From NCBI GenBank assembly GCA_004525155.1, contig SPDA01000006.1, forward strand, positions 1 to 16,357: DNA of 16,357 nucleotides, read 5' to 3'. Positions 1 through 16,357 of this stretch are shown here, in pieces; position 1 is the stretch's first letter, and each line of letters begins with the position of its first letter. A program made the translations under genes and the position numbers. The notes under the pieces were generated by a model, which searched no databases, was not told the DNA's origin, and worked only from the letters and a program-made list of their open reading frames with translations. Source of the stretch: Spirochaetales bacterium (GTDB lineage Bacteria; Spirochaetota; Spirochaetia; SPDA01).

Positions 1-1
1 A

Positions 2-943: not shown

Positions 944-1169
944 AGAAAGACTTGAAAGGCTCGAGACAATCTCGGATGAAATCAACTCCGGAGGCGCAAC
1001 CCTGGACAAGGCCCTGGCCCTTTTCGAAGAGGGTATCAAACTTGCCAGGGGGCTTGAGAAGGACATCGGAAAAATCGAGAGGAAAATCGAAATACTCATT
1101 AATCAGCCGGTAGAGCCGGATGATAAGCCGAACTTTGAACTGTTCGACGACCTGGAAGTACAGGAGTAG
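930..1169 (+). CDS. xseB: Exodeoxyribonuclease VII small subunit
   Basis: Small helical subunit of exonuclease VII, needed to assemble and stabilise the XseA nuclease. The 79-residue length is typical. The family signature is seen in FEERLERLETISDEINSGG, followed by LDKALALFEEGIKLARGLE, which forms the usual two-helix hairpin. The tail is acidic. The ATG at 930 lies inside the end of xseA in another frame, and a GGAGGAG sequence about 7 bases upstream supports this start. The stop at 1167-1169 is only 2 bases before the next gene, so all three genes are probably read from one message. Confidence 0.96.
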   Translation: MKNFEERLERLETISDEINSGGATLDKALALFEEGIKLARGLEKDIGKIERKIEILINQPVEPDDKPNFELFDDLEVQE

Positions 1170-1171
1170 GA

Positions 1172-2131: not shown

Positions 2132-2146
2132 ACCGGTTTTCCGGTT
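2131..2146. terminator. Short hairpin between convergent genes, possible weak bidirectional terminator
   Basis: A perfect 6-base inverted repeat (AACCGG, TTTT loop, CCGGTT) lies in the 22-base gap between the converging hydrolase and PQQ-lipoprotein genes. It starts at the last base of the hydrolase stop codon. The position suits a shared terminator, but the stem is short and neither strand has a clear T-run after it, so this is a weak call. Confidence 0.35.
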
Positions 2147-2153
2147 AAACAGT

Positions 2154-3419
2154 CTAGAACAGTTCCTCCAGCACGTAAAAGTAATGCTCGTCGGTACCGA
2201 AAATAATCCAGTTCTGCGCTATGACAGGCGCGCTTAAAATTTTTCCTTCCAGATCCATCTCCCACATCTTTTTCCCTTTGGCAAGGGAAAGACAAACGAG
2301 CCGGGGATGCTCGTGTTCATAACTCGCGTCGATGCCGAAGTAAATATATTTTCCCGCAGCCGTCGGGGCGCTGGTTGTCTGGGCGTCGAGCTTTTTCTGC
2401 CAGGCTATGTTCCCTGTCCCGGCATTGAAGGCCCTAACGACGCTGTCTCCGCTGGTATAGATGACGAGATTTTTCGCGATGGATGGCGCCAGATAATCGA
2501 GGAGTTTCAGGTTGTCGTTAAATAGTTGCGTTGTGTCAAGATTCCTGGTGAAGGCCCAGTCCGTATAATCCGAATACTTCCAGACAAGGGTGCCCGTCTT
2601 GCGCTCATAGCAGTAATATTCCAGGTTCCATACGTCCAGGTAGGGATCGGCAGTTGAAAAATACACGTACCTGTCATTGAGGGCGGGGAAGGAATACCAG
2701 ACCGCGTCCAGCAGCTCCGTATCGAGAACCCAGAGATAATTTCGGATACCTATGTCCCAGACCCCCATGCTGTGGGGCTGACTGACAGGACCGGGAGCGA
2801 AATAAATGCCGTTGTCATAGACCTGGAAGGTGAAATAATGCCAGACGGGATTGGGGATGGTATACAGTTCACGGCCTGTGGCGGGATCCAGAGAATAGAC
2901 GAATCCTCCGTCGCTCACGAAAATAACGGAGTTTTCATGTTTGATGATGGTGGATTGGATGGTGTTGTCCGCCTGGAAGTCCCAGGCAAGGTCTCCGGTT
3001 TCGCGGTTTATGGCGTAGAGTTTTCCGTCGTTGCTGCCGATGTAGAGGCGCTCGTTGTCCGCCACGGGTACCGGATTGATGGCTCCGCCGGTTTTGAAAA
3101 CCCAGCGCATGTATCCGCTTTCAATGTCCAGAGCATACACATTGCCGTCCGTGGAACCGAAATAAATGGTGTTGCCGATAACCACCGGATTGTTGAAAGC
3201 GTAGGCTGCTTCGGATGATTCCTGCAGTTTGAGCTTCCATTTGACCGCGAGGGGCGGCTTGATGCTTGTTTGGGTGTACCCCCGTCCCTGGTCGCCGCGG
3301 AAGGTAACCCAGTCCCTGCTGGCGCCGCAGGAGAAGAGAACGGTAAGAAACAACAGGATCACAACCCACCTGAAAAAGCCGCCTGTCCTGGTCATGCCGC
3401 GATGTGCCTGAATTTTCAA
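2154..3419 (-). CDS. PQQ-repeat beta-propeller lipoprotein (BamB-like fold)
   Basis: Predicted exported lipoprotein of 421 residues built from PQQ-type beta-propeller repeats. The N-terminus has a hydrophobic segment ending in a lipobox, LFSC, with Cys31 followed by Gly-Ala. The repeats show the usual pattern, for example VYALDIESGYMRWVF, LYAINRETGDLAWDF and VYSLDPATGRELY, and continue to the C-terminus. The fold resembles BamB of the outer-membrane protein assembly machine, but the gene is not in a bam context, so I do not assign that role. It is last in the moxR-DUF58-transglutaminase run and probably acts on the outer side of the membrane with them. The start is ambiguous. A TTG at 3419 overlaps the upstream TGA (TTGA) and has a GGGGGA about 8 bases ahead. 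An ATG at 3395 gives a more classical 23-residue lipoprotein signal but has no good ribosome site. No enzyme activity should be assumed from the PQQ name. Confidence 0.87.
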   Translation of the reverse strand: MKIQAHRGMTRTGGFFRWVVILLFLTVLFSCGASRDWVTFRGDQGRGYTQTSIKPPLAVKWKLKLQESSEAAYAFNNPVVIGNTIYFGSTDGNVYALDIESGYMRWVFKTGGAINPVPVADNERLYIGSNDGKLYAINRETGDLAWDFQADNTIQSTIIKHENSVIFVSDGGFVYSLDPATGRELYTIPNPVWHYFTFQVYDNGIYFAPGPVSQPHSMGVWDIGIRNYLWVLDTELLDAVWYSFPALNDRYVYFSTADPYLDVWNLEYYCYERKTGTLVWKYSDYTDWAFTRNLDTTQLFNDNLKLLDYLAPSIAKNLVIYTSGDSVVRAFNAGTGNIAWQKKLDAQTTSAPTAAGKYIYFGIDASYEHEHPRLVCLSLAKGKKMWEMDLEGKILSAPVIAQNWIIFGTDEHYFYVLEELF

Positions 3420-5617
3420 AGATATATCCCCCGGAGGGAGAAGGGTTTACGCAGAATGTTGAAAAAACCGGGCGCCCTCAAGCCGCGCAGTTTTCCGTAG
3501 GCCCTTCGGAGGTCTTTCCAGAGCTCCGCATCTTCCCCCTCGGCAAAACGGGTGCGGTACCGCAGTCCGGTGTAGAGACCCGCAAACTCGCCGAACTCGG
3601 GCAGAACCTCCGCGTATTCCAGGGCTGTCAGGGAGTCCTTTTTAACGGGCAGTCCGCCTGCGGCAAGCTTCATGAGCAGCAGCCGGTACAGGGCCTTGAG
3701 ACCTGAAACAGTGTCACGCCTGCCGGCGAGAAAAAGCAGGAACTGCTTGCCGAACCGGAAGGCATAAAGAGAAAAAACCACAAGGCCTGTGATACCCGCG
3801 AAAATTCTCACTACCAGGCCCCAGGGGAACACGAAAAGGTCTTCAGGCGCCCGGTAGTCCTCGATGAGGGGGATTACCACGTCTCTCGAATTAGGATCAA
3901 AACCCGGCGGCGGGGGTATTGCGAAGGAGGTGGTTTCAAAATCGACCCAGCCGTAGGGAGGCAGGTAAAACTGTGTCCAGGAATGACGGTGGGAGGTGGT
4001 GACAAGATACAGCTGGTCCGGAGGAAACTCCAGAAGCTTGGGGATGTGCTTCTCCAGTTCCGCAAGTCCCCTCCTGTGCGCAGCGGTCTGCAGCTCCTTT
4101 GCCGCCAGGTATCCGGTAACGACCCGCGAAGGTACGCCGGCGAGCCTGCCCAGCAGGGCGGAAGTATTGGAAAACTCGGAACAGTCACCGGTACGGACCG
4201 AGGTAAGAAATTTCTCAAGTTTTTCAATTTCCACGGAATCGTCGAAACCAAGTTCATACTGGAAGGTGGAAAAGCTCTTTAATATTCCCATTATCGCCTC
4301 GATGGCGGAACCGCTTTTACCCACCATTTCATCCATGTACCCGGTGAAGACCGAAAGATTTTCCGGGGAAAGAGAAACGGAGAGATAATCGGCGAACGCA
4401 AGTTTTTCCTGCTCCGTCAGCGGACGGGCTTTCCTCCATTGCTCCATGCCCGTTATGCTCATGAGGCTTACCGCCTGATAGGAATAATCGAAGGGATGAA
4501 ACTGCGGGTTCAGTATGGTCGGCTCTATGGAGTTCGGCCTGTAGGGCACTACCCGCTCAGAAATAGTGGATAAATAGAATATATTCTGCGGAATACGCCC
4601 CTGGTCAGCCGGAATGTCCGGGTCAACCCAGGTTTCAAGGAAACGCTGATAAGGCATGGTGTAAAAATCCTCATCCTTCTTTATACGGATGAAGCCCAGG
4701 ACAGGATCGAGGCTGCTGTAGTAATTCTCCGCCGCGTATACGGGATTGACGGGGCTGGCGATTACCATGACCGCGTACTGCCTTCCGCCCTCGCCGGAGC
4801 CGGTCCGGCCCTCCCTCGAATCGGATCTGCCTGTCTGCGCGCTTCCCCACTGGTCCGAAGGGATCCCCTGCAGCTCTCCTTCCTGGTTTCCGGTTTCCCC
4901 CTCGTCCCCGTCCTCACCGGCTCCCTGTTTGTCCATGGGCCACCGCTTGCCGCCTTCGTAATTGTTATGGATGGTCTGGGGAAGATCTTCATCAATTGGA
5001 TTGAAGACAATGGAATGCTTTACGAAATTCGGCGGCAGAAACAGGGCCAGTACAAGCAGTACCGGCGCCGCTGCCGCGAAAATAATGAATTCCCTGCGCC
5101 CGCGCCTGTCCTCCCTGCTGTGAAAAGCTGAAAAATATAGCACCAGCCCGTGCGCAAGAAACGAGAGAATGCATACAAAAAGCAGAATCTGGGTTATGCC
5201 GGAAGATTCCCTGGCGGCGGTTTCCGAACTTCTCGCGAAATTGAGAAGCCGGTAATAGATAAAGGCGAGAAAAAACTGCTCTATTACCGCAGCCCACTGC
5301 CCAGGCGGGCCTGCGCGGAAAATGATAAAGGTCAGGACAAAAGAGACACAGGCGCCGGCGAGAAGCAGGAGGGACCCGGTTCCGAACCCATTAATAATCA
5401 GGGCCGTAAAGATGAGGCTTCCCCCGAGGATTAAAAAAAGCCTCGGCCGGAACCGCGGCGGCGAGAAAAAAAAGGCAATGAGCATTTCTCCCGGCACTAC
5501 CACAAACCAGAGCATGATACCCGTCCAGTCGTAGGGAACGACTATGGCTGGGTGAAGGATGGGAATGAGCAGTGCGAGAATATACAGGAAAAGCCGCGTA
5601 AAAAACTGAAATTTAAT
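3416..5617 (-). CDS. TgpA-like transglutaminase-domain membrane protein, probable ATT start
   Basis: Membrane protein of 733 residues if it begins at the ATT codon at 5617. Order of parts (numbered from ATT): several N-terminal membrane helices to about residue 195; a hydrophilic Gly/Glu/Asp-rich linker around 215-280; a transglutaminase-like domain with the full Cys-His-Asp triad, Cys479 in GDCSEFS, His545 in RHSW and Asp559 in GWVDFE; another membrane helix near 595-620; and a cytoplasmic tail resembling the C-terminal domain of TgpA proteins (LTALEYAEVLPEFGEFAG). Family members are thought to modify or cleave envelope proteins or peptides; the substrate is unknown. The frame opens as far as an ATG at 5782, also with a purine-rich stretch before it, but that start would overlap the DUF58 gene by 170 bases and add an unlikely N-terminus. 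The next in-frame ATG, at 5515, would cut the first membrane helix. A perfect AGGAGG at 5626-5631 points to the ATT. Confidence 0.88.
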   Translation of the reverse strand: MKFQFFTRLFLYILALLIPILHPAIVVPYDWTGIMLWFVVVPGEMLIAFFFSPPRFRPRLFLILGGSLIFTALIINGFGTGSLLLLAGACVSFVLTFIIFRAGPPGQWAAVIEQFFLAFIYYRLLNFARSSETAARESSGITQILLFVCILSFLAHGLVLYFSAFHSREDRRGRREFIIFAAAAPVLLVLALFLPPNFVKHSIVFNPIDEDLPQTIHNNYEGGKRWPMDKQGAGEDGDEGETGNQEGELQGIPSDQWGSAQTGRSDSREGRTGSGEGGRQYAVMVIASPVNPVYAAENYYSSLDPVLGFIRIKKDEDFYTMPYQRFLETWVDPDIPADQGRIPQNIFYLSTISERVVPYRPNSIEPTILNPQFHPFDYSYQAVSLMSITGMEQWRKARPLTEQEKLAFADYLSVSLSPENLSVFTGYMDEMVGKSGSAIEAIMGILKSFSTFQYELGFDDSVEIEKLEKFLTSVRTGDCSEFSNTSALLGRLAGVPSRVVTGYLAAKELQTAAHRRGLAELEKHIPKLLEFPPDQLYLVTTSHRHSWTQFYLPPYGWVDFETTSFAIPPPPGFDPNSRDVVIPLIEDYRAPEDLFVFPWGLVVRIFAGITGLVVFSLYAFRFGKQFLLFLAGRRDTVSGLKALYRLLLMKLAAGGLPVKKDSLTALEYAEVLPEFGEFAGLYTGLRYRTRFAEGEDAELWKDLRRAYGKLRGLRAPGFFNILRKPFSLRGIYL

Positions 5618-6953
5618 GGGAATTTCCTCCTGAAACCGGTGCCTTGCCGAAAAGTGATATGGAAAGTTTATGGGTATCCAGGGAATCCTTTCCAAACCGG
5701 CGTATTGTGCCGGCAGGCAGAATTTCCCTTCTCGCCATCCATGTCTGGGGAAGGTATAAGCCGGGCCTTCCGAATAGAACATGGTCCTTCCTGCTGCTGT
5801 CCCCGGCCGTGTCGTTTTCCCTTTCAGCCTGCTTCCTTAAGGAAACCGCGGTCATTGTGTGAATGGTGAAATCCGCATAGTGGGAGGCAGCCAGGGAAAG
5901 ACCCGAATCAAAAGGGGTGGTAAAGATGAAAATCTGGTTCGATGCGGGCTCTTCCGGAAAATTGAGACGGTCTCCGGAGTACCAGAGGGAACTCAGGACC
6001 GTGGCAAGCTTCACGATATCCTTGACGGTATCTATTTTATAATCCTCCGTCCCCGTTCTGACAATAAAACTGTAATCTTCGTGTTCTTTTTTGATGTTCC
6101 AAAGAAAAGTGATGAGCCTGCTCTTCATGTAATCGAGATGCATGACTGCGTCCAGACTTCTTACCCGTGACTGTTTATAGGTCCGTACATCGACGTACAG
6201 CACCTTGGTCTGCTCCTGGGTGACAGGGGATATCCTCGTTATGAACTTGTTCACCCGGGAGGAGGCTTTCCAGTTGATGTCGCGTATCCTGTCGCCGGGT
6301 ATATACTCGCGCATGTAATATTTTTCCTCGTCGGCGTTCTTCTGCCGGTTCTTGCTGTCGAATCCGCCCATGGTGTCGAGGTTGAGTCTGGATGATTCCG
6401 TCAGCAGCCTGGGCTGGACCGGCAGATGCCGGTGCATGGTTTCCCCGAACCTGGTGCGGGTAAGACCGAAGATGTCCCTTATGAGGAGAATGCCTCTCAC
6501 GAGGGCCAGACCTGAAACAGGAAGGCTGAAAGGTACCCTCAGGCTCCCGTCCCCGGTGAAATTAGATTCAACGAAAAACGGCAGGAAGACGGAAGAATCG
6601 AGTTTAAGCCTCCCGGAGATCCTGAAATGTACGCGGAAAAAGAAAAAACTGCGGGCTTGGGGGATGGTCAGCACCTGGAACGCGCCCTCCCTGCCCGCGT
6701 AGAGGGCCTGGGTGGAATCCCAGTTAATGGAGGCTGCGCCGAACCTGCGGGCCTGAATCCTCCCGAGGATGATGAAAAGGCAGAGAAGAAACAGCGCGAT
6801 TAGTGAAATGTAGAGGCCATAGGCGTTTTTCTGTGCATAGGATTTTCCAAGTATGTAGAACAGCGCGGCGCAGAGCAGAGTCCCGGCAGGAGTAAAAGGA
6901 AAATAAAAAGCCGCCGTCCGAAACAACTTTTGAATGCCGCGCATGAATTTCAT
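5613..6953 (-). CDS. DUF58 domain protein
   Basis: DUF58 family protein of 446 residues, found next to MoxR ATPases in many bacteria. Two membrane helices lie at about residues 15-35 and 45-65. They are followed by a beta-rich domain and the diagnostic DUF58 motif REYIPGDRIRDINWKASSR at 215-233. The following segment VLYVDVRTYK occupies the position of the VWA-like domain but lacks a clear DxSxS metal site, as in many members. The ATG at 6953 has AGAGG four bases upstream; an ATG at 6944 is possible. It starts 19 bases after moxR ends, and its TAA overlaps the probable ATT start of the transglutaminase gene. It probably acts as a membrane partner of the MoxR ATPase; the biochemical role in this family is not established. 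Confidence 0.92.
   Translation of the reverse strand: MKFMRGIQKLFRTAAFYFPFTPAGTLLCAALFYILGKSYAQKNAYGLYISLIALFLLCLFIILGRIQARRFGAASINWDSTQALYAGREGAFQVLTIPQARSFFFFRVHFRISGRLKLDSSVFLPFFVESNFTGDGSLRVPFSLPVSGLALVRGILLIRDIFGLTRTRFGETMHRHLPVQPRLLTESSRLNLDTMGGFDSKNRQKNADEEKYYMREYIPGDRIRDINWKASSRVNKFITRISPVTQEQTKVLYVDVRTYKQSRVRSLDAVMHLDYMKSRLITFLWNIKKEHEDYSFIVRTGTEDYKIDTVKDIVKLATVLSSLWYSGDRLNFPEEPASNQIFIFTTPFDSGLSLAASHYADFTIHTMTAVSLRKQAERENDTAGDSSRKDHVLFGRPGLYLPQTWMARREILPAGTIRRFGKDSLDTHKLSISLFGKAPVSGGNSH
5626..5631 (-). promoter_or_regulatory. Perfect Shine-Dalgarno AGGAGG selecting an ATT start codon
   Basis: On the minus strand AGGAGG is followed by 8 bases and then ATT AAA TTT, in frame with the transglutaminase gene. 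No ATG, GTG or TTG lies at a usable distance. The ATT at 5617-5615 shares one base with the TAA stop of the DUF58 gene (ATTAA), a start/stop overlap of the kind used for translational coupling. Confidence 0.7.
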
Positions 6954-6972
6954 TCAGCCTCTGCCGTTATTA

Positions 6973-7935
6973 TCAGGACCTCTTCTCCACGGGCGTGGAG
7001 TCGAGGATGGTACGAAGCAGTTCCGGAACATCTCTTGTAGCATCATGCATTATTATCCTGTGGGCTACGGTCGGTATGAAGATTTCCTTGATGAGGTCTA
7101 TCGATACATAATCATCGCCCCTCACAAGTGCAAGGGCCCGTGCAAGCCTGGAAACTTTTATACCGGCCCTGGGGCTTCCGCCCATGTGTACATCCGGATG
7201 GCTTCTTGTCTTTCTTACGAGGGCAACGATGTACTCAATGACATCAGGATGTATGCTTACCTCATCCACCAGGGCCTGCCAGGCAAGGAGATCCCCGGAG
7301 GTGATCACGGGACGGAAATTTGCCCAGGAATTTTCCTTTCCGTGCATCGTTACAATTTCCGCTTCCACGGACGCTTCCGGGAAGCCCATGGATACCCTCA
7401 GCATGAAACGGTCCAGCTGCGGAGCCGGCAGGGGAAACAGGTGAACCCCTTCCAGGTTCATGGTGGCAATAATAAAAAACGGGTCCGGAAGAACGTAGGT
7501 TTTACCCTCGATACTGACGGTCTGTTCTTCCATGACCTGGAAAAAGCTGCCCTGGGTTTTCGGGGTTAGCAGGTTGATTTCGTCACAGAGGATGAAGTGC
7601 GCGAAAATGGGGCCTTCGGTAAAGATCATGCTGTCGGAGGAACTTAAAAACCGCGTGTAACCCAGGATGTCCTGGGGAAGAAGATCAACCGTGCACTGTA
7701 TCCTGGAGAAGCTATCGATTTTCGTTCCGTTGTCGGGAACCTCGTCTTCCCACTGTATCGAGCCTGCCAGGGCCCTGGCCAGGGAGGTCTTGCCGACACC
7801 GTGACTGTCGGCCAGCATGACATGGCCGCCCGCTATTTTGGCTGCGATTATGTACTCAAGTTTTTTTCCGTCGATGTAGACGATTGAACGAATGTTGCTG
7901 ATAAGCTTTTCTATTTCCAAATGGACTTGTTTCAT
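6973..7935 (-). CDS. MoxR-family AAA+ ATPase
   Basis: Cytoplasmic AAA+ ATPase of the MoxR family, 320 residues, likely to act as a chaperone or remodelling factor for the neighbouring membrane proteins. Walker A is ADSHGVGKT at 42-50, Walker B is FILCDEIN at 114-121, sensor 1 is ATMN with Asn160, the Arg-containing LDRF is at 174-177, and the sensor 2 region is GGSPRAG at 252-258. Two family-typical residues differ: Leu follows DEIN where Arg is usual, and ATMNLE replaces the usual AT-NP. The frame opens to 8010, but that would overlap the 51-residue gene and add 25 residues unlike the family. The ATG at 7935 gives the normal MoxR N-terminus. No ribosome site precedes it; a promoter-like element lies immediately upstream instead. 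Confidence 0.93.
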   Translation of the reverse strand: MKQVHLEIEKLISNIRSIVYIDGKKLEYIIAAKIAGGHVMLADSHGVGKTSLARALAGSIQWEDEVPDNGTKIDSFSRIQCTVDLLPQDILGYTRFLSSSDSMIFTEGPIFAHFILCDEINLLTPKTQGSFFQVMEEQTVSIEGKTYVLPDPFFIIATMNLEGVHLFPLPAPQLDRFMLRVSMGFPEASVEAEIVTMHGKENSWANFRPVITSGDLLAWQALVDEVSIHPDVIEYIVALVRKTRSHPDVHMGGSPRAGIKVSRLARALALVRGDDYVSIDLIKEIFIPTVAHRIIMHDATRDVPELLRTILDSTPVEKRS

Positions 7936-7943
7936 ATTCGTGT

Positions 7944-7973
7944 AGTGTACCGCAATTAATGCAACTAATTCAA
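7944..7973 (-). promoter_or_regulatory. Predicted promoter for moxR, leaderless type
   Basis: On the minus strand TTGAAT (7973-7968) is followed by 18 bases and TACACT (7949-7944). The -10 element ends 8 bases before the moxR ATG, so transcription would begin within a base or two of the start codon. No Shine-Dalgarno sequence is present. It overlaps the end of the 51-residue gene, so moxR may have both this promoter and read-through from upstream. Confidence 0.5.
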
Positions 7974-8125
7974 GGACGGCTGATTGTGATGGATATTTCC
8001 TCATCGACATTCACATCCCGCAGGGATTTGAGCAGTCCCATGATGACATTGACACCCGCTCTTTTAACAAAAGGATTCAGATTCACCTTTTTTCCTCCCA
8101 CGATGATGGTAATTGTCCTTTCCAA
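7970..8125 (-). CDS. Small conserved-looking protein of unknown function, 51 residues, TTG start
   Basis: I do not recognise this protein. The open frame reaches an ATG at 8167, but that lies inside the predicted -10 region. The TTG at 8125 has GGAGG seven bases upstream and makes a compact protein starting MERTITIIVGGKKVNLN. The sequence suggests two short beta strands, a helix around FVKRAGVNVIMGLLKSLR, and a final strand EISITIS. It has no signal peptide, membrane helix or cysteine. It has its own promoter (8156-8184) and ends 34 bases before the moxR ATG, so it may be the first gene of the moxR-DUF58-transglutaminase operon. The good ribosome site, promoter and alternating hydrophobic pattern support it being real, but homology would decide. 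Confidence 0.7.
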   Translation of the reverse strand: MERTITIIVGGKKVNLNPFVKRAGVNVIMGLLKSLRDVNVDEEISITISRP

Positions 8126-8155
8126 AACAAAGCCTCCTTCCTTAAATATTACTAA

Positions 8156-8184
8156 ATTGTACAACATTGGACTGTCTTGGGCAA
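8156..8184 (-). promoter_or_regulatory. Predicted promoter for the 51-residue gene and downstream operon
   Basis: On the minus strand TTGCCC (8184-8179), a 17-base spacer and TACAAT (8161-8156) form a good vegetative-type promoter. Transcription would start near 8149, giving a leader of about 24 bases that contains the GGAGG ribosome site. Its -35 element overlaps the -35 of the divergent promoter. Confidence 0.6.
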
Positions 8185-8205
8185 TCGCCGCGAATCATAT
8201 ACAAT
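8177..8205 (+). promoter_or_regulatory. Predicted divergent promoter for the THEP1-type NTPase gene
   Basis: TTGGGC (8177-8182), a 17-base spacer and TACAAT (8200-8205) match a vegetative-type promoter. The -10 ends 7 bases before the ATG at 8213, so the message would be leaderless or nearly so. TTGGGCAA serves as -35 in both directions, four of its bases shared by the two hexamers. Confidence 0.55.
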
Positions 8206-8212
8206 ACCGGAA

Positions 8213-8713
8213 ATGCCGGAAAAAGTGATTATCGTTACCGGGGAACGCAATGGCGGAAAGACTTCGAAAATGAGGGAAATCGCTGCCGGTTACCGAAGCC
8301 TTGGTCTAGAACCAGCCGGAATACTTTCCGTAAATTCGGAAGCGGGAACGCCGGATTTACCGGAGCCGGACAAATCCCGGTATTTCGCCCTGGACCTTGC
8401 AAGCGGAACGACCAGGCTCCTCGCGTCGGAAGTCCCCATCGCCGGTGAGGATACTTTCCGCTTAGGCAGGTTTTATTTTTCCGCCGGCGCCTTTTCCTGG
8501 TCCTCCTCGGTTATCGAGGCGGGTTTCTCCGCGCCTGTACTGATGATTGACGAACTCGGTCCCGTGGAGCTCGCAGAAAGGGGCTTCTGGAAAACGGCAG
8601 CAAGGGCAGCGGCCGGGTTTCGTGGAATACTGGTTTTATCGATACGGGATCGGTTTCTGGAGCTTTTTACCGAAAAACTGGGCATCCGTCCCGGGATAAT
8701 CAAGGTAACTTGA
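8213..8713 (+). CDS. THEP1-type nucleoside-triphosphatase (NTPase_1 family)
   Basis: Small P-loop NTPase of 166 residues resembling the THEP1 family, whose characterised members hydrolyse NTPs in vitro with unclear cell function. Walker A is GERNGGKTS at 10-18. Walker B and the family motif are in VLMIDELGPVEL at 109-120, very like the DEIGPMEL signature. RFYFSAGAF at 86-94 matches the region that is usually F/Y-rich in the family. The C-terminal part is short compared with THEP1 and ends at GIIKVT. The frame opens to 8177, but that start overlaps the predicted promoter. The ATG at 8213 gives the normal beta-strand before Walker A, and no Shine-Dalgarno precedes it. It is divergent from the 51-residue gene and followed after 43 bases by the DUF2156 gene with its own promoter. 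Confidence 0.82.
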   Translation: MPEKVIIVTGERNGGKTSKMREIAAGYRSLGLEPAGILSVNSEAGTPDLPEPDKSRYFALDLASGTTRLLASEVPIAGEDTFRLGRFYFSAGAFSWSSSVIEAGFSAPVLMIDELGPVELAERGFWKTAARAAAGFRGILVLSIRDRFLELFTEKLGIRPGIIKVT

Positions 8714-8721
8714 TTTCACCA

Positions 8722-8750
8722 TTGATTTTACTCAGGTTCATTATTACATT
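8722..8750 (+). promoter_or_regulatory. Predicted promoter for the DUF2156 gene, leaderless type
   Basis: TTGATT (8722-8727), a 17-base spacer and TACATT (8745-8750), with only 6 bases before the ATG at 8757. The first transcribed base should be at or next to the start codon. No Shine-Dalgarno sequence is present. Confidence 0.55.
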
Positions 8751-8756
8751 ACAACC

Positions 8757-9668
8757 ATGATTATTCCTGCTTATCCCGAGTTCGCGGACATCAGTATGGA
8801 CATGAGGCCTATCCTTCATCCAAGAATGGTTATGCTGAAAGACGGCGTATCCGAGTTTTCTTTCGCCGGGCTGTACCTGTTCCGCAAGACGTATCAGTAC
8901 AGGCTTTCCTGGCTGCCTGACGAAACCATCATCATCTCCGGAATGAAGGCGGGGAAGCGCGTTTTTATGCTGCCCTGCGGATTCCCTCAGGATGTTGAAC
9001 TCATTAAAGATTTTTTTGCCCGGCATGATTACTGCCGTTGTCTTTCCGCAACCGACACGCATGCGGCCAGGATATCTCTGGAATCCCTCGGTTTTGTGGT
9101 TGAGGAGGACAGGGACCACTTCGATTACCTCTACCTCCGGAAAGAACTCGCGTCCCTGGAAGGGAGGGAGTACCATAAAAAGCGCAATCTTATCAATGCT
9201 TTTATCAACAATTACACTTATGCGGAAAAACCCCTGACAGAGGAAAACATGGGTGATGCACAGGCGGTTTTAGAAGAGTGGACGGCGATAAAAGGAGTTT
9301 CCGGCGATTACACTGCCGCAAATGAGGCCCTGCAGCTGGCACAGATCCTGGAATTAAGCGGCAGCGTATACTATGTGGACGGAACTCCGGCAGGATACAC
9401 TCTCGGCGAACCTGTCAAGCACGGCCGCAGTTTTGCGGTCCATTTTGAAAAGGCGAATTCAAAATACAAAGGCATTTACCAGTTCATGAACCAGTCCTTC
9501 GCCGCCTCTCTTCCCAGGTATATCACCTGGATTAACAGGGAACAGGACCTGGGCGACCCCGGGCTCCGCCAGGCGAAGATGACCTACAGGCCGGCGGATT
9601 TCGTAAAAAAATACAGGATATTAAAACCGGAGGAAGAGCCGGCTCCGCCACCGGCGTCTATTTCATGA
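8757..9668 (+). CDS. DUF2156 domain protein (LPG synthase C-terminal-like, GNAT-type fold)
   Basis: Cytoplasmic protein of 303 residues matching the stand-alone DUF2156 family. This family is related to the catalytic C-terminal domain of phosphatidylglycerol lysyltransferase and to tandem-GNAT aminoacyl transferases. Diagnostic stretches are FDYLYLRKELASLEGREYHK at 122-141, followed by KRNLINAF, and INREQDLGDPGLRQAKM at 259-275 followed by TYRPADFVKKY. PAGYTLGE at 211-218 looks like the acceptor-side strand of a GNAT fold. There is no membrane domain, so it is not a full lysyl-PG synthase, and the acceptor substrate is unknown. The last residues are Pro/Glu-rich. The stop overlaps the next start as ATGA, so the cupin is translationally coupled. 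Confidence 0.9.
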   Translation: MIIPAYPEFADISMDMRPILHPRMVMLKDGVSEFSFAGLYLFRKTYQYRLSWLPDETIIISGMKAGKRVFMLPCGFPQDVELIKDFFARHDYCRCLSATDTHAARISLESLGFVVEEDRDHFDYLYLRKELASLEGREYHKKRNLINAFINNYTYAEKPLTEENMGDAQAVLEEWTAIKGVSGDYTAANEALQLAQILELSGSVYYVDGTPAGYTLGEPVKHGRSFAVHFEKANSKYKGIYQFMNQSFAASLPRYITWINREQDLGDPGLRQAKMTYRPADFVKKYRILKPEEEPAPPPASIS

Positions 9669-10198
9669 ATAAAACCGCCGGAATGATAATTGACCGGTTG
9701 AACCTCGAGCCCTTGAGTTTTGAAGGCGGATATTTCCGGCAAACCTGGTCATCCGGCGGCATGGTCGCCGGCGGCACGATCGCCGGCGGCACGATCGACG
9801 GCGGCACGATCGCCGGCGGCACAGCCATTTATTACCTGCTGACGGACGAACCCGAATCATTTTCACGCATGCACAAGCTTCCCTCAGACGAACTGTGGCA
9901 TTTTTACTGCGGTGATCCTGTTGAACTGCTTCTGCTGCATCCTGACGGAAGCGGTGAGGTTCTCATACTGGGTTCCGATATTGGGGACGGACAGAGGCCC
10001 CAGATTGCCGTTCAGGCGGAAACATGGCAGGGTGCGAGAATTGTACCCGGTATCGACAACCCTGCCGGTTATGCGCTTCTGGGAACCACCATGTTCCCGG
10101 GGTTCCAGAAAGATGATTTTGTTCCCGGGGATCGGGAAGAGCTTTGTGTGCGCTATCCTGCGTTTGCGGATTTCGTCGGGAAGCTCGTGACTCGGTGA
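9665..10198 (+). CDS. DUF985 cupin-superfamily protein with an internal AGGTI repeat
   Basis: Cupin protein of 177 residues of the DUF985 type, function unknown. Family landmarks are LEPLSFEGGYFRQTW at 15-29, TAIYYLLTDEPESFSRMHKL at 53-72, SDELWHFYCGD at 74-84 and GTTMFPGFQKDDF at 140-152. The last of these precedes the usual RYPAFADFVGKL ending. His70 and His79 are the likely metal-ligand positions. Residues 31-53 are a low-complexity run of GGTIA-like units, encoded by a 15-bp tandem repeat, in the loop just before TAIYYLL. The start overlaps the DUF2156 stop by 4 bases (ATGA) and has no separate ribosome site. Convergent with the threonine aldolase gene 31 bases downstream; I see no clear terminator between them. 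Confidence 0.88.
   Translation: MNKTAGMIIDRLNLEPLSFEGGYFRQTWSSGGMVAGGTIAGGTIDGGTIAGGTAIYYLLTDEPESFSRMHKLPSDELWHFYCGDPVELLLLHPDGSGEVLILGSDIGDGQRPQIAVQAETWQGARIVPGIDNPAGYALLGTTMFPGFQKDDFVPGDREELCVRYPAFADFVGKLVTR
9755..9823 (+). repeat. 15-bp tandem repeat, about 4.6 copies, inside the cupin gene
   Basis: Units of GGCGGCACGATCGCC repeat head to tail. The first copy differs at two bases (ATGGTC), the third has GAC instead of GCC, and the last is partial (GGCGGCACA). The unit length keeps the reading frame and encodes Gly-Gly-Thr-Ile-Ala. Near-identity of the central copies suggests recent expansion by slippage. Confidence 0.93.
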
Positions 10199-10229
10199 TT
10201 TTCAAATAACCGCCGAAGGAAGGGAGACA

Positions 10230-11288
10230 TCATTTCCCGGTGCCGGCAAGAGCCCGCCCGGTACCGGACAGCACATAATCGATATCCCCGGCACTTATAC
10301 CGGCATGGATGACGAAACGGATTTCGCCGTCCCCGGGAGGTTCACCGAAAGGCGGATAGGTCAATATGCCCAGTTCAGCGAGGTTCCGGACAAATTGAAG
10401 CCCGTTCACGGAACCTGCCACGACACGGATAAAAACCATGTTTATCTTCACCCTGTCCCTTGCCACCGACAGTTCCTTAAAAGCTGACAACCCCTCTGAC
10501 AGTCTCAGGGCCAGGGCATGGTCCTCCGGCAGACGTTCCGTCATCTCCGTAAGGGCAATAAGGCCGGCCGCTGCAAGTATCCCAGCCTGCCGCATGCCGC
10601 CGCCCATGAGTTTCCGGCTGTACCGGGCCTTTTCCACGAAATTCTCCGTGCCCGCGAGCAGGGAACCGACGGGCGCGCAGAGGCCCTTGGACAGGCAGAA
10701 CATGAGGGAATCCGTATACCTTCCGAGACGGGAGGCCTTGACGCCCAGGGCCCAGGCGGCATTGAAAATCCGCGCTCCGTCGCAATGAACGGGTATGCCT
10801 TGTTCCCGGGCACCGCGGTAGATCCTCTCCATCTCCGCCTCCGGCATTACGGCCCCGGTGCCCAGGGCATTTTCAATGGCTATAAGCCCCGTTGCCGGCT
10901 GATGAATATCTTTTCCTGTCCGGACACGCTTCAGGATTTCTTCCCAGGTAAGGTGAAGGCCCGCAGGCGCGACGGGCCGCAGGTTCACGCCGCTCAAGAC
11001 ACCCGGCGCCCCTGCCTCGTGTTCCACGATATGACTGTCTTCCGCACAGATTACCTCGCTGCCCCTGGCACAGTGGGTCATGATCGCGCACTGGTTGCCG
11101 AAGGTGCCTGAGGGAACGAAAAGGGAGGCTTCCTTGCCCGTCATTTCCGCCCCCAGCCTCTGGAGTTTATTGATGGTCGGATCCTCCCCCAGAACATCGT
11201 CACCGACTTCCGCCTCATACATGGCTTTGCGCATACGTTCCGTCGGTTTTGTGACTGTGTCCGACCGCAGATCGATTATTTTTTCCAT
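10230..11288 (-). CDS. ltaE: L-threonine aldolase (low-specificity type), PLP-dependent
   Basis: Pyridoxal-phosphate enzyme of 352 residues that splits L-threonine or L-allo-threonine to glycine and acetaldehyde, giving a route to glycine. The family sequence is clear throughout: IDLRSDTVTKPTERMR at 5-20, VGDDVLGEDPT at 28-38, SGTFGNQ at 60-66, SHIVEHEAG at 85-93 with the ring-stacking His86, HCDGARIFNAA at 168-178 with Asp170 and Arg173, and FCLSKGLCAPVGS at 197-209 with the PLP lysine Lys201. The ATG at 11288 gives the normal family N-terminus and has AAGGA about 11 bases upstream. An earlier ATG at 11309 adds seven residues and has no ribosome site. It overlaps the end of the glycosyltransferase gene by 13 bases, so the two are coupled though functionally unrelated. 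Confidence 0.94.
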   Translation of the reverse strand: MEKIIDLRSDTVTKPTERMRKAMYEAEVGDDVLGEDPTINKLQRLGAEMTGKEASLFVPSGTFGNQCAIMTHCARGSEVICAEDSHIVEHEAGAPGVLSGVNLRPVAPAGLHLTWEEILKRVRTGKDIHQPATGLIAIENALGTGAVMPEAEMERIYRGAREQGIPVHCDGARIFNAAWALGVKASRLGRYTDSLMFCLSKGLCAPVGSLLAGTENFVEKARYSRKLMGGGMRQAGILAAAGLIALTEMTERLPEDHALALRLSEGLSAFKELSVARDRVKINMVFIRVVAGSVNGLQFVRNLAELGILTYPPFGEPPGDGEIRFVIHAGISAGDIDYVLSGTGRALAGTGK

Positions 11289-12421
11289 TCCAGTTTTTTT
11301 CCTTTCCATTCTATCGGAACTTTAAAAAGACAAAGTATGTTGACAAAGGTATAGAGAAGGGAGGCAAACAGTATATTCGGAACCAAAAGCAGCCAGTAGG
11401 AAAAAAACGGCATGCGCGAGCTGATGGCGCCGGTCAGGGCAATGGAAAGCATACTCGCGAAAGTGGCTGCCGATACAAGAAGAAGGGGAGGCCAGAGCGG
11501 AATGAAGGGCAGGACAAACAAACCGCCCGCAAGAAAAATCATCACTGCAGCGTAACCCCAGCGGGCGCCGGGGTCCTTTGAAAAAAACGCGCCGCTGGAC
11601 CAGCGCAATTCCTGCCTGGCCATGTTCCTCATTGTATCGAGGGGTTCCGGACGCACCGTTATGCCCGGCTCCGTCAATGCCAGAATACGGCAGCCTGTCC
11701 GCTTCCGCACGGCCGCGATAAGCGCCGCGTCTTCCGTTGCCGTTTCTTCGATGGAATCGTACCCTCCTATCGCCTCCAAAACAGTTTTTCGTATGGCAAG
11801 GTTGTTGCCGAAACCGCCGCTGGGCAGATTAAGACCGGCGACGCCGGCGGTATAATAATAACGGAAGCAGTGATCGAAAGTCTGGAAACGGCTTAAATAT
11901 TTCCCCGTTTTTTTTGTAATTACGGCGCCGAAGACCATGCCTGTATCTTTCTCCGCGAAGGGCTTTACCATATTTCTCGCCCAGTCCGGCGGCAGGGTGC
12001 AGTCCGCATCGGTGAACAGGAGAATGCTGCCCCGCGCAGCCTCGATTCCCCTGCTCAAGGCGTACTGTTTGGGATTGAAGGTTCCGCTGTTTTCCGTAAG
12101 CCGCAGGATGGTGACCCGGTCCGGAATTCTCCGGCGGTAGTCTTCCATTATGACGTCTGTCGCGTCCGCGGAACGGTCATTCACGAACACCACGCTGAAA
12201 TCCTGAAAAGACTGGTTTTCAAGGTGTTTTATCAGTTCCGGCAGGGTGTTTTCCTCGTCCTTGGCGGGAATAACAATGGTTACGGTTTCATTTTCCGGCA
12301 GTTCCCGGTTATTGAGTCTTCTCTCCTTCCGCCTCGCCAGAGCAATGCCTGTGCACACGAGTACATGGGTCATGATGGTGGCCCCGGCAAAAAGGCAGAT
12401 TATGATTAAAGGGAGTATCAT
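11276..12421 (-). CDS. Family 2 glycosyltransferase, membrane-bound, processive type
   Basis: Inner-membrane GT2 glycosyltransferase of 381 residues. An N-terminal membrane helix lies at about 3-28. The GT-A catalytic domain follows, with TIVIPAKDEENTL at 48-60, VVFVNDRSAD at 77-86, the DAD metal-binding motif at 138-140, the TED motif ending at Asp231, and QELRW at 270-274, which fits the QxxRW signature of processive synthases. Three or so membrane helices occupy about 290-365, and the tail is Lys-rich. Such enzymes extend a polysaccharide or modify a lipid from a nucleotide sugar; the sugar cannot be read from the sequence. The ATG at 12421 has no ribosome site but a TATACT seven bases upstream. 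It lies 55 bases after the U32 gene and overlaps the threonine aldolase gene. Confidence 0.92.
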   Translation of the reverse strand: MILPLIIICLFAGATIMTHVLVCTGIALARRKERRLNNRELPENETVTIVIPAKDEENTLPELIKHLENQSFQDFSVVFVNDRSADATDVIMEDYRRRIPDRVTILRLTENSGTFNPKQYALSRGIEAARGSILLFTDADCTLPPDWARNMVKPFAEKDTGMVFGAVITKKTGKYLSRFQTFDHCFRYYYTAGVAGLNLPSGGFGNNLAIRKTVLEAIGGYDSIEETATEDAALIAAVRKRTGCRILALTEPGITVRPEPLDTMRNMARQELRWSSGAFFSKDPGARWGYAAVMIFLAGGLFVLPFIPLWPPLLLVSAATFASMLSIALTGAISSRMPFFSYWLLLVPNILFASLLYTFVNILCLFKVPIEWKGKKLEWKK

Positions 12422-12428
12422 ACGTGGC

Positions 12429-12434
12429 AGTATA
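12429..12434 (-). promoter_or_regulatory. -10-like element TATACT before the GT2 gene, leaderless type
   Basis: TATACT on the minus strand ends 7 bases before the ATG at 12421, and there is no Shine-Dalgarno sequence. I found no good -35 hexamer 16-18 bases upstream, so this may be a weak or -10-only promoter. Confidence 0.4.
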
Positions 12435-12476
12435 CTAAATGAAATAAGTGTTCCTGAAAAGGCCGGCCTGATATTT

Positions 12477-14846
12477 TTATTGCAGGCCTCTCTTGTAATT
12501 TCCCGAAGTCACGCCCGGCAGAAGGGAGATTATTTCCTTTTTATCCGGCTTTTTGCCTGCAAGAAGGTCTGCAAAGTGGCTGATAACGGCGGTTTTGAGG
12601 GACGGAGGAAGGGAAAAGAAGGGAAAATCCCTCAGATCAAGCACCATATAGTCGACCCTGTTCCTGAATTGGGCTGCGGCTTCGGGAAGGAAGAGAATCT
12701 GTTTGTTGTACAGTTCCGTGAACCACCCCTCTCTGTTCAGGATGTGAAAGTCGTATCCGGCCTTGTCACGGATGGTCGCGGAGCTGCCTTCCGGGGTCAA
12801 GGGCTGCCTGGTCGTCATGAGGAGGATGGGACCGAAAACAGAAAGATAACTGCCCATACCCTCCGGAACCGTAAGGGAGAGGAGCTGTTCCCGGTTCAGC
12901 TCCAGTGAAAAAAAGGCCCCGGAGCAGAAGGCCCTGCTTCTCAGGGCTTCGAAGGCCCAGGAATTGGCGCAGTTTGCAGGCGGTCCCGCTATCCAGGGGA
13001 TCCCCGCCGCGCCGGTTTTCATGCCCAGCCCCGTGTTGCCGGTAATAAGAGTTTTTACGGAGGAGTCCCTGATGGCCTCCATCCAGGGGTCAAGATCTTT
13101 CTCCAGGATGATGGTCGGCAGCCAGGGCAGGGCGCTTTCTTTCGTCCCGGCGCCCTCCGTCCCCGCCAGGGCCCGCAGTTCACCGGGTGCGGAAACCTCA
13201 AAAGCCTGCCTTATTGCCGTGCCCCGTTCCGGAATAGCTGCTTCGGCGCCCGGGGAAAGAAGCACAAGAAGGCCTGTATCAAAATCTTTTCGTGTTGTCA
13301 GTGCCGGAAGCCCGGAACCGGCGGTTCGGGGCACGGGGTTTTCAATTTTTCCTGCCGCTTCCTGCCGCATACGGTTCAATTCGCTAACGGGCAGGAAAAG
13401 ATTTTCGTCGAAAGGGGCAAGAGAAAAGGATACCGACTTGTCCGTGAATCCGCTCCCCCCGGCCAGGTGGTTTTCGATGCTTTTCCGGTCCAGCGCCTGG
13501 TTGCGGGCTTTCTCGAGGTTCATCCTGCTCGAAACCGCGGCAGTTCGGCCATCCTGTTCGTATACGGCTTTGAGCGGGTTTCCCGCTTCCGCCGTTACCC
13601 TGAGGAGGACAGTTTCCGGTTCGGGTTTAAGATCTTCAATCTTTTTTAAAAGGTTCGAGAGGACATCGGTTTGAACAGCCCTCACGACGAGGTATCCGGG
13701 AAGAATCCTGCCGTACAGCTTGCCGGTTATCTTCAGGCGGTACCCACCGGCGGCATGCATACCGGCCTGTTTAGTCAGGTCCCCCGCGCAGATAAACACA
13801 TTCCGGGGGCTGAAAATCTGGATCTGGCAGGAAGAAGGGATCTCGGCGTTTTCCGCCAAGGAAAGGCTGCCTGCCGAGGCGTCGAAAGATTTGACCTTTC
13901 CTATAACGGGGAGGGACTGGTCCAGGGGGGAATCCACGAACATGCCGGCAGCAAGATCGCCTTTAAGGTATCCTTCAGTGAAACCCCTGTTGAATACTTT
14001 TTCAAGTTCTCCCTGATGATAACGCAGCGCCTGTTCATAGGCTGCGGGGTCCCCTGCGGCGTCAAGCGTCTCCCGCCAGGCCCTGGTTACGGTATAGACA
14101 TAATGAAAATTCTTGATCCGACCTTCAATTTTCAGGGCGTCGGCGCCCAGATCCGACAGCTCGGCGGCCGAGGCCAGGACGTTATTGTCCCGCAGGCTTA
14201 ATACATAGCGGAAATCGCCGCTGTCAGTCGGGGCATACTGCTTTCTGCAGGGCTGCATGCAGGCGCCCCGGTTGCCTGAATTTCCTCCTATAAAGGAGCT
14301 CATATAACACTGGCCGGAAAAGGACAGGCAGAAGGCTCCGTGAACAAACAGTTCCGCCTCGAGGCCCAGGTCATGGACGGCGGGGACGAGGACCGAAAGC
14401 TCATTAAGGGACAGTTCTCTTGCAAGATTGACCCGGCCGCAGCCGCAGGCGCCGGCAAGGGCCGCCTGGGCGCTGTTGTGAATGGTCATCTGTGTGGACG
14501 CGTGAATGCTCACCCCCGGGTAAAGATGCCTTAAAAGAACGCACAATCCCAAATCCTGCACTATTATGCTGTCTATACCCGCTTTTAGAGCTTCTCCGGC
14601 TGTTTCGAGGGCTTCCGCCAACTCCATATCGGTAAGCAGAACATTGAGCGTCAGAAAAAGAACGGCATTCTTCTGCCGGGCCAGCCTGCTTAAGTAGTGC
14701 AGATTGCCCATGGTTACATTTCTGGCCCTGATTCTGGCATTGAATTTCGGCAGCCCCACATATATTGCATCGGCACCTGCGAGCAGGGCGGCCTTGACGG
14801 CGTCCTCATCCCCTCCGGGGGCAAGAATTTCCGGCTTTTTACTCAT
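12477..14846 (-). CDS. U32-family protein with DUF3656, RlhA/YdcP type (annotated as peptidase U32)
   Basis: Large cytoplasmic protein of 789 residues. The N-terminal U32 domain begins EILAPGGDEDAVKAALLAGADA. It contains HGAFCLSFSGQCYMSSF at 169-185 and GNRGACMQPCRKQY at 191-204, giving four cysteines (173, 180, 196, 200) that bind an iron-sulfur cluster in studied U32 RNA-modifying enzymes. KIEGRIK at 238-244 and FNRGFTEGY at 284-292 are conserved. The middle, about 400-500, resembles DUF3656 and ends LPVSELNRMRQEA. The C-terminus ends TSGNYKRGL. This is the layout of E. coli YdcP/RlhA, which hydroxylates 23S rRNA C2501, rather than a proven protease. At 789 residues it is longer than RlhA (about 650), the extra length lying after DUF3656. 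No ribosome site precedes the ATG at 14846. The exact rRNA or other target is inference. Confidence 0.9.
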   Translation of the reverse strand: MSKKPEILAPGGDEDAVKAALLAGADAIYVGLPKFNARIRARNVTMGNLHYLSRLARQKNAVLFLTLNVLLTDMELAEALETAGEALKAGIDSIIVQDLGLCVLLRHLYPGVSIHASTQMTIHNSAQAALAGACGCGRVNLARELSLNELSVLVPAVHDLGLEAELFVHGAFCLSFSGQCYMSSFIGGNSGNRGACMQPCRKQYAPTDSGDFRYVLSLRDNNVLASAAELSDLGADALKIEGRIKNFHYVYTVTRAWRETLDAAGDPAAYEQALRYHQGELEKVFNRGFTEGYLKGDLAAGMFVDSPLDQSLPVIGKVKSFDASAGSLSLAENAEIPSSCQIQIFSPRNVFICAGDLTKQAGMHAAGGYRLKITGKLYGRILPGYLVVRAVQTDVLSNLLKKIEDLKPEPETVLLRVTAEAGNPLKAVYEQDGRTAAVSSRMNLEKARNQALDRKSIENHLAGGSGFTDKSVSFSLAPFDENLFLPVSELNRMRQEAAGKIENPVPRTAGSGLPALTTRKDFDTGLLVLLSPGAEAAIPERGTAIRQAFEVSAPGELRALAGTEGAGTKESALPWLPTIILEKDLDPWMEAIRDSSVKTLITGNTGLGMKTGAAGIPWIAGPPANCANSWAFEALRSRAFCSGAFFSLELNREQLLSLTVPEGMGSYLSVFGPILLMTTRQPLTPEGSSATIRDKAGYDFHILNREGWFTELYNKQILFLPEAAAQFRNRVDYMVLDLRDFPFFSLPPSLKTAVISHFADLLAGKKPDKKEIISLLPGVTSGNYKRGLQ

Positions 14847-14852
14847 GTTTAT

Positions 14853-14858
14853 AATTTA
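14853..14858 (-). promoter_or_regulatory. -10-like element TAAATT before the U32 gene, leaderless type
   Basis: TAAATT on the minus strand ends 6 bases before the ATG at 14846 in an AT-rich stretch with no Shine-Dalgarno sequence. The -35 region is poor (AAGACT at the 17-base distance). Supported mainly by agreement with the same arrangement at four other genes here. Confidence 0.35.
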
Positions 14859-14895
14859 CAGATATTTAGGGAAAAAGTCTTTACCATTTAATTGC

Positions 14896-14925
14896 TTGAC
14901 GATTGAAGAGGGGCGTTAGTATTTT
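14896..14925 (+). promoter_or_regulatory. Predicted promoter of the grpE-dnaK operon
   Basis: TTGACG (14896-14901), an 18-base spacer and TATTTT (14920-14925) resemble a vegetative promoter; TTTAAT at 14923-14928 is an alternative -10. The leader of roughly 25 bases carries AGGGG about 6 bases before the grpE ATG. I see no CIRCE-type inverted repeat, so HrcA control is not indicated here. Confidence 0.5.
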
Positions 14926-14956
14926 AATGGTAGCATAATCACTACAGGGGTAAACG

Positions 14957-15619
14957 ATGTCAAAAGAAGAAGAGGAAGTTGCTGCTCCTCAGTCCGTCTC
15001 AGTGCCCGAAGACCAGAAAGAGGGCACCGCAGATGAAAGTAACGAAATTCCCGTCGTGGAAAGCGAAAACGGAGACACAGTATTAATGAAGCTGGAAAAA
15101 AAGGTAAAAGATCTCGAGGAAGAAAACATCTCTCTCAAGGACCAATACCTTCGAAAAACAGCGGATTTTGAAAATTTCAGAAAAAGAATGTTCAGGGAGA
15201 AAGATGAAGCGATAAAATACGCGAATTCCAATCTCCTGACGGATATTATCACGGTCATAGACGATTTTGAACGTGCCATACGATCAGGTCAGGACCAGAA
15301 AGATTTCGATTCCTTTTTCAGCGGCATAGAACTCATCGAAAGGCAGTTTGTAAGCCTTCTCGAAAGAAACTGGGGCCTCAAACGTTTCGACTCTCTCGGA
15401 GAAATTTTTGATCCTGAAAAGCATGAGGCGATTGCCACAGGCGAAGCGGATGTGCAGGAAACTGTTGTTCTGGAGGATTATCAGAAAGGATACATGCTTC
15501 AGGACAGGGTAATCAGACACTCAAAGGTAAAAGTATCCGTACCTACCCAGAAACAGGAGAATGCGGAACAGACAGATAGCGTAGCGGAAGATGATAAAGT
15601 GGAGGAACATAATGGCTAG
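14957..15619 (+). CDS. grpE: Nucleotide exchange factor GrpE
   Basis: Co-chaperone of 220 residues that forms a dimer and releases ADP from DnaK. The N-terminus is acidic and disordered (about 1-40). A long coiled-coil helix runs from about 43 to 92 and includes [14 protein letters not shown]. The C-terminal beta domain carries the GrpE signature FDPEKHEAI at 151-159 and [16 protein letters not shown] at 178-193. An acidic tail of about 25 residues follows the beta domain; its coding region contains the dnaK ribosome site and start. The ATG at 14957 has AGGGG six bases upstream. The last 8 bases overlap dnaK, so GrpE and DnaK synthesis is coupled. Confidence 0.97.
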
Positions 15620-16357
15620 TAAAAGAATTATCGGTATTGACCTTGGGACGACAAACTCCTGTGTTGCGGTTATGGAAGGAGGGGAGCCTGTAGTCATACA
15701 GAACTCGGAAGGACAGCGCACCACTCCGTCCATTGTCGGTTTTACAGCAAAGGGTGAGCGTCTCGTCGGTCAGCCGGCCAAAAATCAGATAGTAACCAAT
15801 CCGGAAAATACCGTATATTCAATAAAAAGGTTCATGGGAAGAAAATACCAGGAAGTGCCTTCGGAAATAAAAATGGTGCCGTATACCATCAGGGAAACGA
15901 CCTCCGGCGATGTAATGGTGGACGTGCAGGGAAAACAGTATTCTCCCCCCGAGATTTCGGCTGCCGTTCTTCAGAAAATGAAGAAAACGGCTGAAGATTA
16001 CCTGGGCGAGACAGTTACAAGGGCAGTCATCACGGTACCGGCGTATTTCAACGACGCCCAGCGCCAGGCAACCAAGGACGCGGGCCGCGTTGCGGGACTC
16101 GAGGTGGAGAGAATCGTGAACGAACCCACTGCCGCGTCCCTGGCCTATGGATTCGGTAAGGAACAGAAGGACGAAAAGATTGCCGTATACGATTTCGGCG
16201 GCGGCACCTTCGATATTTCCATTCTGGAACTCGGGGACGGCGTATTCGAGGTGAAATCCACCAACGGCGATACGCATTTGGGCGGAGACAATATCGACCA
16301 GCGCGTCATTGACTGGCTTATCACGAATTTCAAAAAGGACTACGGCATAGACTTGTC
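15612..16357 (+). CDS. dnaK: Molecular chaperone DnaK (Hsp70), 5' part, runs off the window
   Basis: ATP-driven Hsp70 chaperone; 248 codons of the N-terminal nucleotide-binding domain are present and the frame is open at the window end. The sequence starts [20 protein letters not shown]. The three Hsp70 signatures expected so far are present: phosphate-1 loop GIDLGTTNS at 8-16, [17 protein letters not shown] at 142-158, and phosphate-2 loop DFGGGTFD at 194-201. SIKRFMGRK at 70-78 is also conserved and places a lysine at 72. The ATG lies inside the end of grpE with GGAGG six bases upstream. The substrate-binding domain lies outside the window, and dnaJ may follow there. Confidence 0.98.

Follow-up and report, generated by a model that had tools for sequence, protein, structure and literature searches.

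The window analysed here is a 16,357-nucleotide stretch of DNA from a Spirochaetales bacterium (GCA_004525155.1, contig SPDA01000006.1, positions 1 to 16,357), contig 538 of a 3.18-Mb metagenome-assembled genome in 687 contigs (88% complete, 7% contaminated). The flagellar family FlaA (PF04620), which is linked to spirochaetes, was found in this genome, in 15/21 related genomes (own genome included) and in 0/14 control genomes; because of this distribution we take the genome as a spirochaete and the sampled class as Spirochaetia. Five genes in the window carry a TANNNT hexamer 6–8 bases before an ATG start codon. We consider it probable (about 0.82) that such boxes act as −10 elements giving leaderless messages at a minority of the genes that stand first in a transcription unit. 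The five genes, their boxes and one neighbouring open reading frame (ORF) are listed below; SD denotes a Shine-Dalgarno sequence.

6973..7935, reverse strand: moxR-type AAA ATPase gene, ATG at 7935 (Pfam AAA_3, E 7.8e-36), no SD
7944..7949, reverse strand: TACACT, −10-like, 8 bases before the moxR ATG
7968..7973, reverse strand: TTGAAT, −35-like box of moxR (18-bp spacer to the −10); shares bases with the 51-codon ORF's stop codon
7970..8125, reverse strand: 51-codon ORF upstream of moxR, TTG start, AAGGAGG SD
8177..8182, forward strand: TTGGGC, −35-like box of the THEP1-type gene
8200..8205, forward strand: TACAAT, −10-like, 7 bases before the THEP1-type ATG at 8213
8213..8713, forward strand: THEP1-type NTPase gene (Pfam NTPase_1, E 2e-6), no SD
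8722..8727, forward strand: TTGATT, −35-like box of DUF2156
8745..8750, forward strand: TACATT, −10-like, 6 bases before the DUF2156 ATG at 8757; recurs across the class
8757..9668, forward strand: DUF2156 / LPG_synthase_C gene (Pfam PF09924, E 6e-46)
11276..12421, reverse strand: GT2 glycosyltransferase gene (Pfam PF00535, E 2.5e-27)
12429..12434, reverse strand: TATACT, −10-like, 7 bases before the GT2 ATG at 12421; absent from most relatives
12477..14846, reverse strand: U32 peptidase-family gene (Pfam PF01136, E 2.3e-63)
14853..14858, reverse strand: TAAATT, −10-like, 6 bases before the U32 ATG at 14846

An earlier sequence-only reading had reported five TANNNT hexamers with their distances to ATG and three −35 boxes. 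All hexamers and spacers are exactly as it gave them, and the three −35 boxes are present at 18 bp (TTGAAT), 17 bp (TTGGGC) and 17 bp (TTGATT) from the −10; no TTG-type −35 lies at 15–19 bp in the case of GT2 and U32. The same reading placed leaderless genes at transcript starts. As a general statement this is supported by the genome-wide excess, the class counts and the homologues described below. Within the window, divergence from the upstream neighbour is seen only at THEP1 and U32; THEP1, which has a fair −35 and −10, faces away from the 51-codon ORF and moxR. In contrast, moxR, DUF2156 and GT2 are not clear transcript openers, because same-strand genes lie 34 bases (the 51-codon ORF, with its SD), 43 bases (THEP1) and 55 bases (U32) upstream of them, respectively.

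None of the five genes has an SD by the rule used for window genes (GGAG, GAGG or AGGA at −20 to −4), as had been claimed. The companion claim, that most other genes do have one, held for xseB, the hydrolase, DUF58, dnaK and the 51-residue gene, and failed for grpE, which has only a weaker AGGGG. By the same rule an SD was present in 5/8 other window genes checked, the transglutaminase and PQQ-type genes lying outside this set of eight. The cupin gene at 9665 and the aldolase-type gene at 11309 also lack an SD, although each start overlaps the preceding gene. A search for a 16S rRNA that would reveal the anti-SD gave no match.

Enrichment was assessed in a sample of the genome comprising 80 contigs and 441,279 bases (~14%), of which 40 contigs had been chosen through an earlier match or a high coordinate, mostly ABC-transporter matches, and the remaining 40 by their contig numbers. 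Gene calls relied on codon usage only, with upstream signals unused, and a gene was considered unit-opening if it was divergent, at a contig edge or preceded by a gap of at least 40 bases. The predicted excess of TANNNT over shuffled upstream regions is present in this sample with the window excluded. Among SD-less unit-opening ATG genes, 17/70 carry the box at spacers 6–8, compared to 6.8 ± 2.2 in dinucleotide shuffles (0/400 reach 17). The signal is weaker for all unit-opening ATG genes with no SD filter (19/154 vs 13.2 ± 3.4; 24/400 shuffles reach it), as dilution by SD genes would predict. SD-less inner genes showed no significant excess (4/43 vs 1.7; 30/400 shuffles reach it). By start codon, a box at spacers 6–8 precedes 3/30 GTG starts and 0/13 TTG starts. 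The default rule gives an excess of 9.6 genes (95% confidence interval 2.2–17.8), or 6.2% of the 154 unit-opening ATG genes. This is a minority mode, and the earlier wording that the organism uses leaderless messages "routinely" is too strong.

Robustness was examined over three gap limits and three SD rules (nine settings) and 13 spacer sets. Spacers 6–8 held 14–19 genes compared to a mean of 4.3–11.3 at other spacers; they ranked first of the 13 sets in 7/9 settings and tied with spacers 16–18 in the other two. Two further approaches contributed little. Over all ATGs of the genome, TANNNT-N6-8-ATG occurs 2704 times and the reversed pattern 2337 times, a comparison set aside because the reversed pattern makes a poor control. 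When every ATG of the samples was profiled irrespective of gene calls, little signal emerged.

These counts bear on the possibility that AT-rich intergenic DNA simply yields TANNNT near ATGs by chance and that five such cases were collected by the reader. With ~9% of called ATG genes boxed at spacers 6–8, one or two are expected in the window. Box density is higher in the window than in the rest of the sample: 5 of ~15 genes are boxed (P = 0.008 against a background of 9.0% of sample ATG genes, window excluded), where ~15 is our own count of genes starting in the window and the five were chosen after the fact. The absence of the GT2 box from most relatives also fits chance. Against it, the excess is absent from dinucleotide shuffles, from most other spacers and from 13 control genomes, it is weak at inner genes, and the DUF2156 arrangement is kept in 14/15 families. 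We hold chance to be refuted as a general account, which makes it highly improbable overall, and possible for GT2 and THEP1.

Homologues of DUF2156 were taken from the best 30 of 67 genomes with a match, own genome included. The box stands at spacers 6–8 in 24/30, covering the 14 families noted above. Of the six misses, four (all genus g30) have the box at 9, one (L327) has it at 12, and one (L308) was misset by the nearest-start rule and counted as a miss. Among the 28 relatives called with ATG none has an SD and 23 are boxed, compared to an average of 4.0 and a maximum of 11 in 2000 mononucleotide shuffles. TTG lies mostly 17–18 bp upstream of the −10. Spacers 9–11 are also raised (10/30), partly through the same genes. 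Most homologues align from residue 1; their conserved N terminus, usually xIPxYPxF, has the ATG that follows the box as its first codon. This alignment argues against wrongly called starts, in which ordinary promoters would precede a leader and a true, SD-preceded start further in. Such an error is suggested by the ambiguous starts of several moxR homologues and by U32 starts that differ by a few residues among homologues; we nevertheless find it very hard to credit as an explanation of the pattern.

The regions upstream of 23 DUF2156 genes in other genomes were used to build a −35/−10 matrix (consensus TTGAT / TATATT). At a score of at least 8 and spacers 6–8 it matched 9/154 unit-opening genes of the own genome outside the window, compared to 0, 1, 3, 3, 4, 2, 3 and 4 of 154 at eight other spacer sets and 0/130 inner genes (the window's included). 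Among the window genes only DUF2156 (12.1) passed this threshold; moxR and GT2 each scored 5.2, THEP1 4.7 and U32 2.8.

In the case of U32, 29 of 30 loci from 32/41 genomes were usable (L150 was dropped for want of a usable start). The box is found at spacers 6–8 in 11/29 homologues, own included, compared to 1–6 at other spacer sets; L155 was misset by the nearest-start rule and counted as a miss. An SD is present in 7/23 relatives with ATG, and the set seems to mix subfamilies. For moxR, 20 of the 25 homologues that have at least 60% identity were used. Eight of the 20 have a box 6–8 bases before an in-frame ATG (no spacer control) when any of the three nearest in-frame ATGs is counted, and 5/20 under a strict rule that takes only the start nearest the query's; L341, cut by a contig end, was counted as a miss. 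A TTGAC-type −35 was seen by eye in 7/8 of the boxed relatives, and further boxes occur at 9–11. For GT2, 95 genomes had a match and 30 loci were taken, 29 of them usable (L299, lacking a usable start, was dropped). Only 3/29 homologues, own included, keep the box at 6–8, and the arrangement is not conserved.

Another explanation is that the boxes are genuine −10 elements of minor or secondary promoters, while the main messages of moxR, GT2 and perhaps DUF2156 come by read-through from the same-strand genes at the short distances given above. It would suit moxR, whose SD-bearing upstream ORF also precedes moxR in the same-order genome G001, and GT2, whose same-order homologues have an SD. It is harder to reconcile with the eight boxed moxR homologues and their −35 elements. 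In the relatives examined no THEP1 homologue was found at the DUF2156 loci, so the DUF2156 box is independent of its THEP1 neighbour. We regard read-through as a tentative explanation, somewhat short of even odds.

The homologue of the 51-codon ORF in G001 (L331; tblastn E 1.5e-8, 34% identity) lies upstream of moxR, which is why the ORF is probably a real small gene.

To extend the comparison to the class, we compared counts of TTG-N18-22-TANNNT-N6-8-ATG with those of a frame-matched N12-14 version of the pattern, using 118 class genomes including our own. The 6–8 form was the more frequent in 116/118 genomes, with z of at least 2 in 104, at least 3 in 86 and −2 or lower in 0; because z here presumes Poisson counts, and the genomes are not independent of one another by descent, more weight falls on the family count. 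All 39 sampled families have a ratio above 1, f21 (1.04) and f16 (1.02) barely so. The highest ratio, 5.5, was found in G088 (210 vs 38). One further comparison, W01, was left out as too small (3 vs 3 matches), and a GrpE comparison against plasmids was set aside as uninformative. The six genomes with the largest ratios (2.5–5.5; G088, G095, G053, G014, G039 and G082) would suit 5’-end mapping.

Controls came from a scan of named genomes with U32, which returned 80 Firmicutes-type bacteria and archaea, none labelled spirochaete; 45 were pooled as Clostridia, 10 as Methanolobus, and 13 genomes were used for pattern counts. In these 13 (Clostridia and other Firmicutes, Methanolobus, Methanocorpusculum) the ratio was ~1, higher in 4 and lower in 9, none beyond z 0.6. 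Gene-based counts gave the same picture. SD-less unit-opening genes of other class genomes exceeded their shuffle means (G001 and G002 together, 12/50 vs 4.0; G007, 16/44 vs 3.5; G009, 10/30 vs 1.3; small samples, G088, 3/12 vs 0.2, and G014, 2/9 vs 0.3), as did those of the positive control D. radiodurans MP1 (10/40 vs 1.2). The pooled Clostridia (17/114 vs 16.9) and the Methanolobus set of 10 showed no peak at 6–8.

Several observations weigh against the leaderless interpretation. The gene starts come from a home-made caller, and the control genomes were used without matching their base composition to that of the class. The absence of an SD at boxed genes is partly trivial, since the box sits in the SD position and the two vie for one stretch of sequence; this makes SD absence a weak criterion, and we rejected it as independent evidence on finding the same anticorrelation in Clostridia. 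Of the 21 own-genome boxes at 6–8 (window included), 7.5, roughly one in three, are expected by chance, spacers 9–11 are also raised in several sets, and under the fewest-SD rule spacers 6–8 and 16–18 are hardly distinguishable (19/19, 16/16 and, at the third gap limit, 19 vs 18). The own genome shows the class pattern at 268 vs 212, a z of only 2.6. The two same-order relatives have no DUF2156 match, their moxR homologues (L330, L331) have no box at 6–8, and their GT2 homologues (L271, L272) have a GGAGAA-type SD before the start.

Elsewhere in the window, an Rfam search gave no match. The cupin (DUF985) gene contains a 15-base tandem repeat at 9753-9822 (4.7 copies), which encodes a repeated AGGTI-type pentapeptide near the protein's N terminus. 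Homologues of the transglutaminase, PQQ-type and aldolase-type genes are adjacent in G001 (L228, 42-3840); in the window the aldolase-type gene lies several kb off.

Taken together, the results favor the interpretation of the boxes as −10 elements of leaderless messages. TANNNT would serve as a sigma-70-type −10, with polymerase starting on the A of the ATG or 0–2 bases ahead of it. The resulting mRNA would be leaderless, and ribosomes would presumably recognise its terminal AUG directly, with no need of an SD. The arrangement would apply to ~6% (above background) of the genes opening transcription units. Within the window it is most probably present at DUF2156, U32 and moxR, for which the homologues lend strong, good and moderate support, respectively. 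At THEP1, where the evidence comes from the own genome alone, it is plausible; at GT2 it is doubtful.

The breadth of the signal suggests that leaderless initiation extends through most of the spirochaete class. It may even be an old, class-wide mode of the Spirochaetia, with DUF2156 at its core, then U32 and MoxR, and with −35, −10 and AUG kept over family-level divergence; here we find the case evenly balanced. If true, such retention would imply selection for leaderless translation at core genes. Annotation that places starts by their SDs would misplace leaderless genes, which would also escape promoter prediction. As to why bacteria hold on to leaderless messages, a gene whose start has stayed leaderless from family to family offers a good natural test.

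The leaderless mode is already known from other bacteria, including Leptospira, which belongs to the same phylum as the present spirochaete. A literature search, with most subscription journals and domain-wide scans outside its reach, found no class-wide leaderless account of the Spirochaetia. In Leptospira interrogans, differential RNA sequencing placed the transcription start within 10 bases of the start codon for 430–450 genes, and exactly there for 184 and 170 (PMC5243855). That case is from another lineage and is experimental; the passages concerned do not describe a −10 box by the ATG or gene conservation. For Borrelia burgdorferi, leaderless transcripts are called frequent in a passing remark (PMC10618245).

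The closest likeness is to the TA-led genes of Zheng et al. 2011, described in PMC3160421 as having TANNNT ~12 bp before the start (from the first T), read as a −10, and no SD. All five window genes show TANNNT at that position, with spacers of 6–8. A table of that paper gives 6/18 Spirochaetes genomes as positive, with a mean of 3.9% (1.8–6.9) of genes, whereas here 116/118 genomes of one class go in the predicted direction and genes keep the arrangement across families. In Deinococcus-Thermus, TANNNT beside the ORF, as here, was demonstrated experimentally as the −10 of leaderless genes, at ~30% of ORFs (PMC12340547). Figure S7 of that paper scanned the whole bacterial domain and may include spirochaetes, although the word is absent from the main text. 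Unlike that system, the present one concerns ~6% of unit-opening genes, and the class DUF2156 promoter adds a TTGAT −35. What is added here, from sequence only, is the breadth over a class and the case of a conserved gene.

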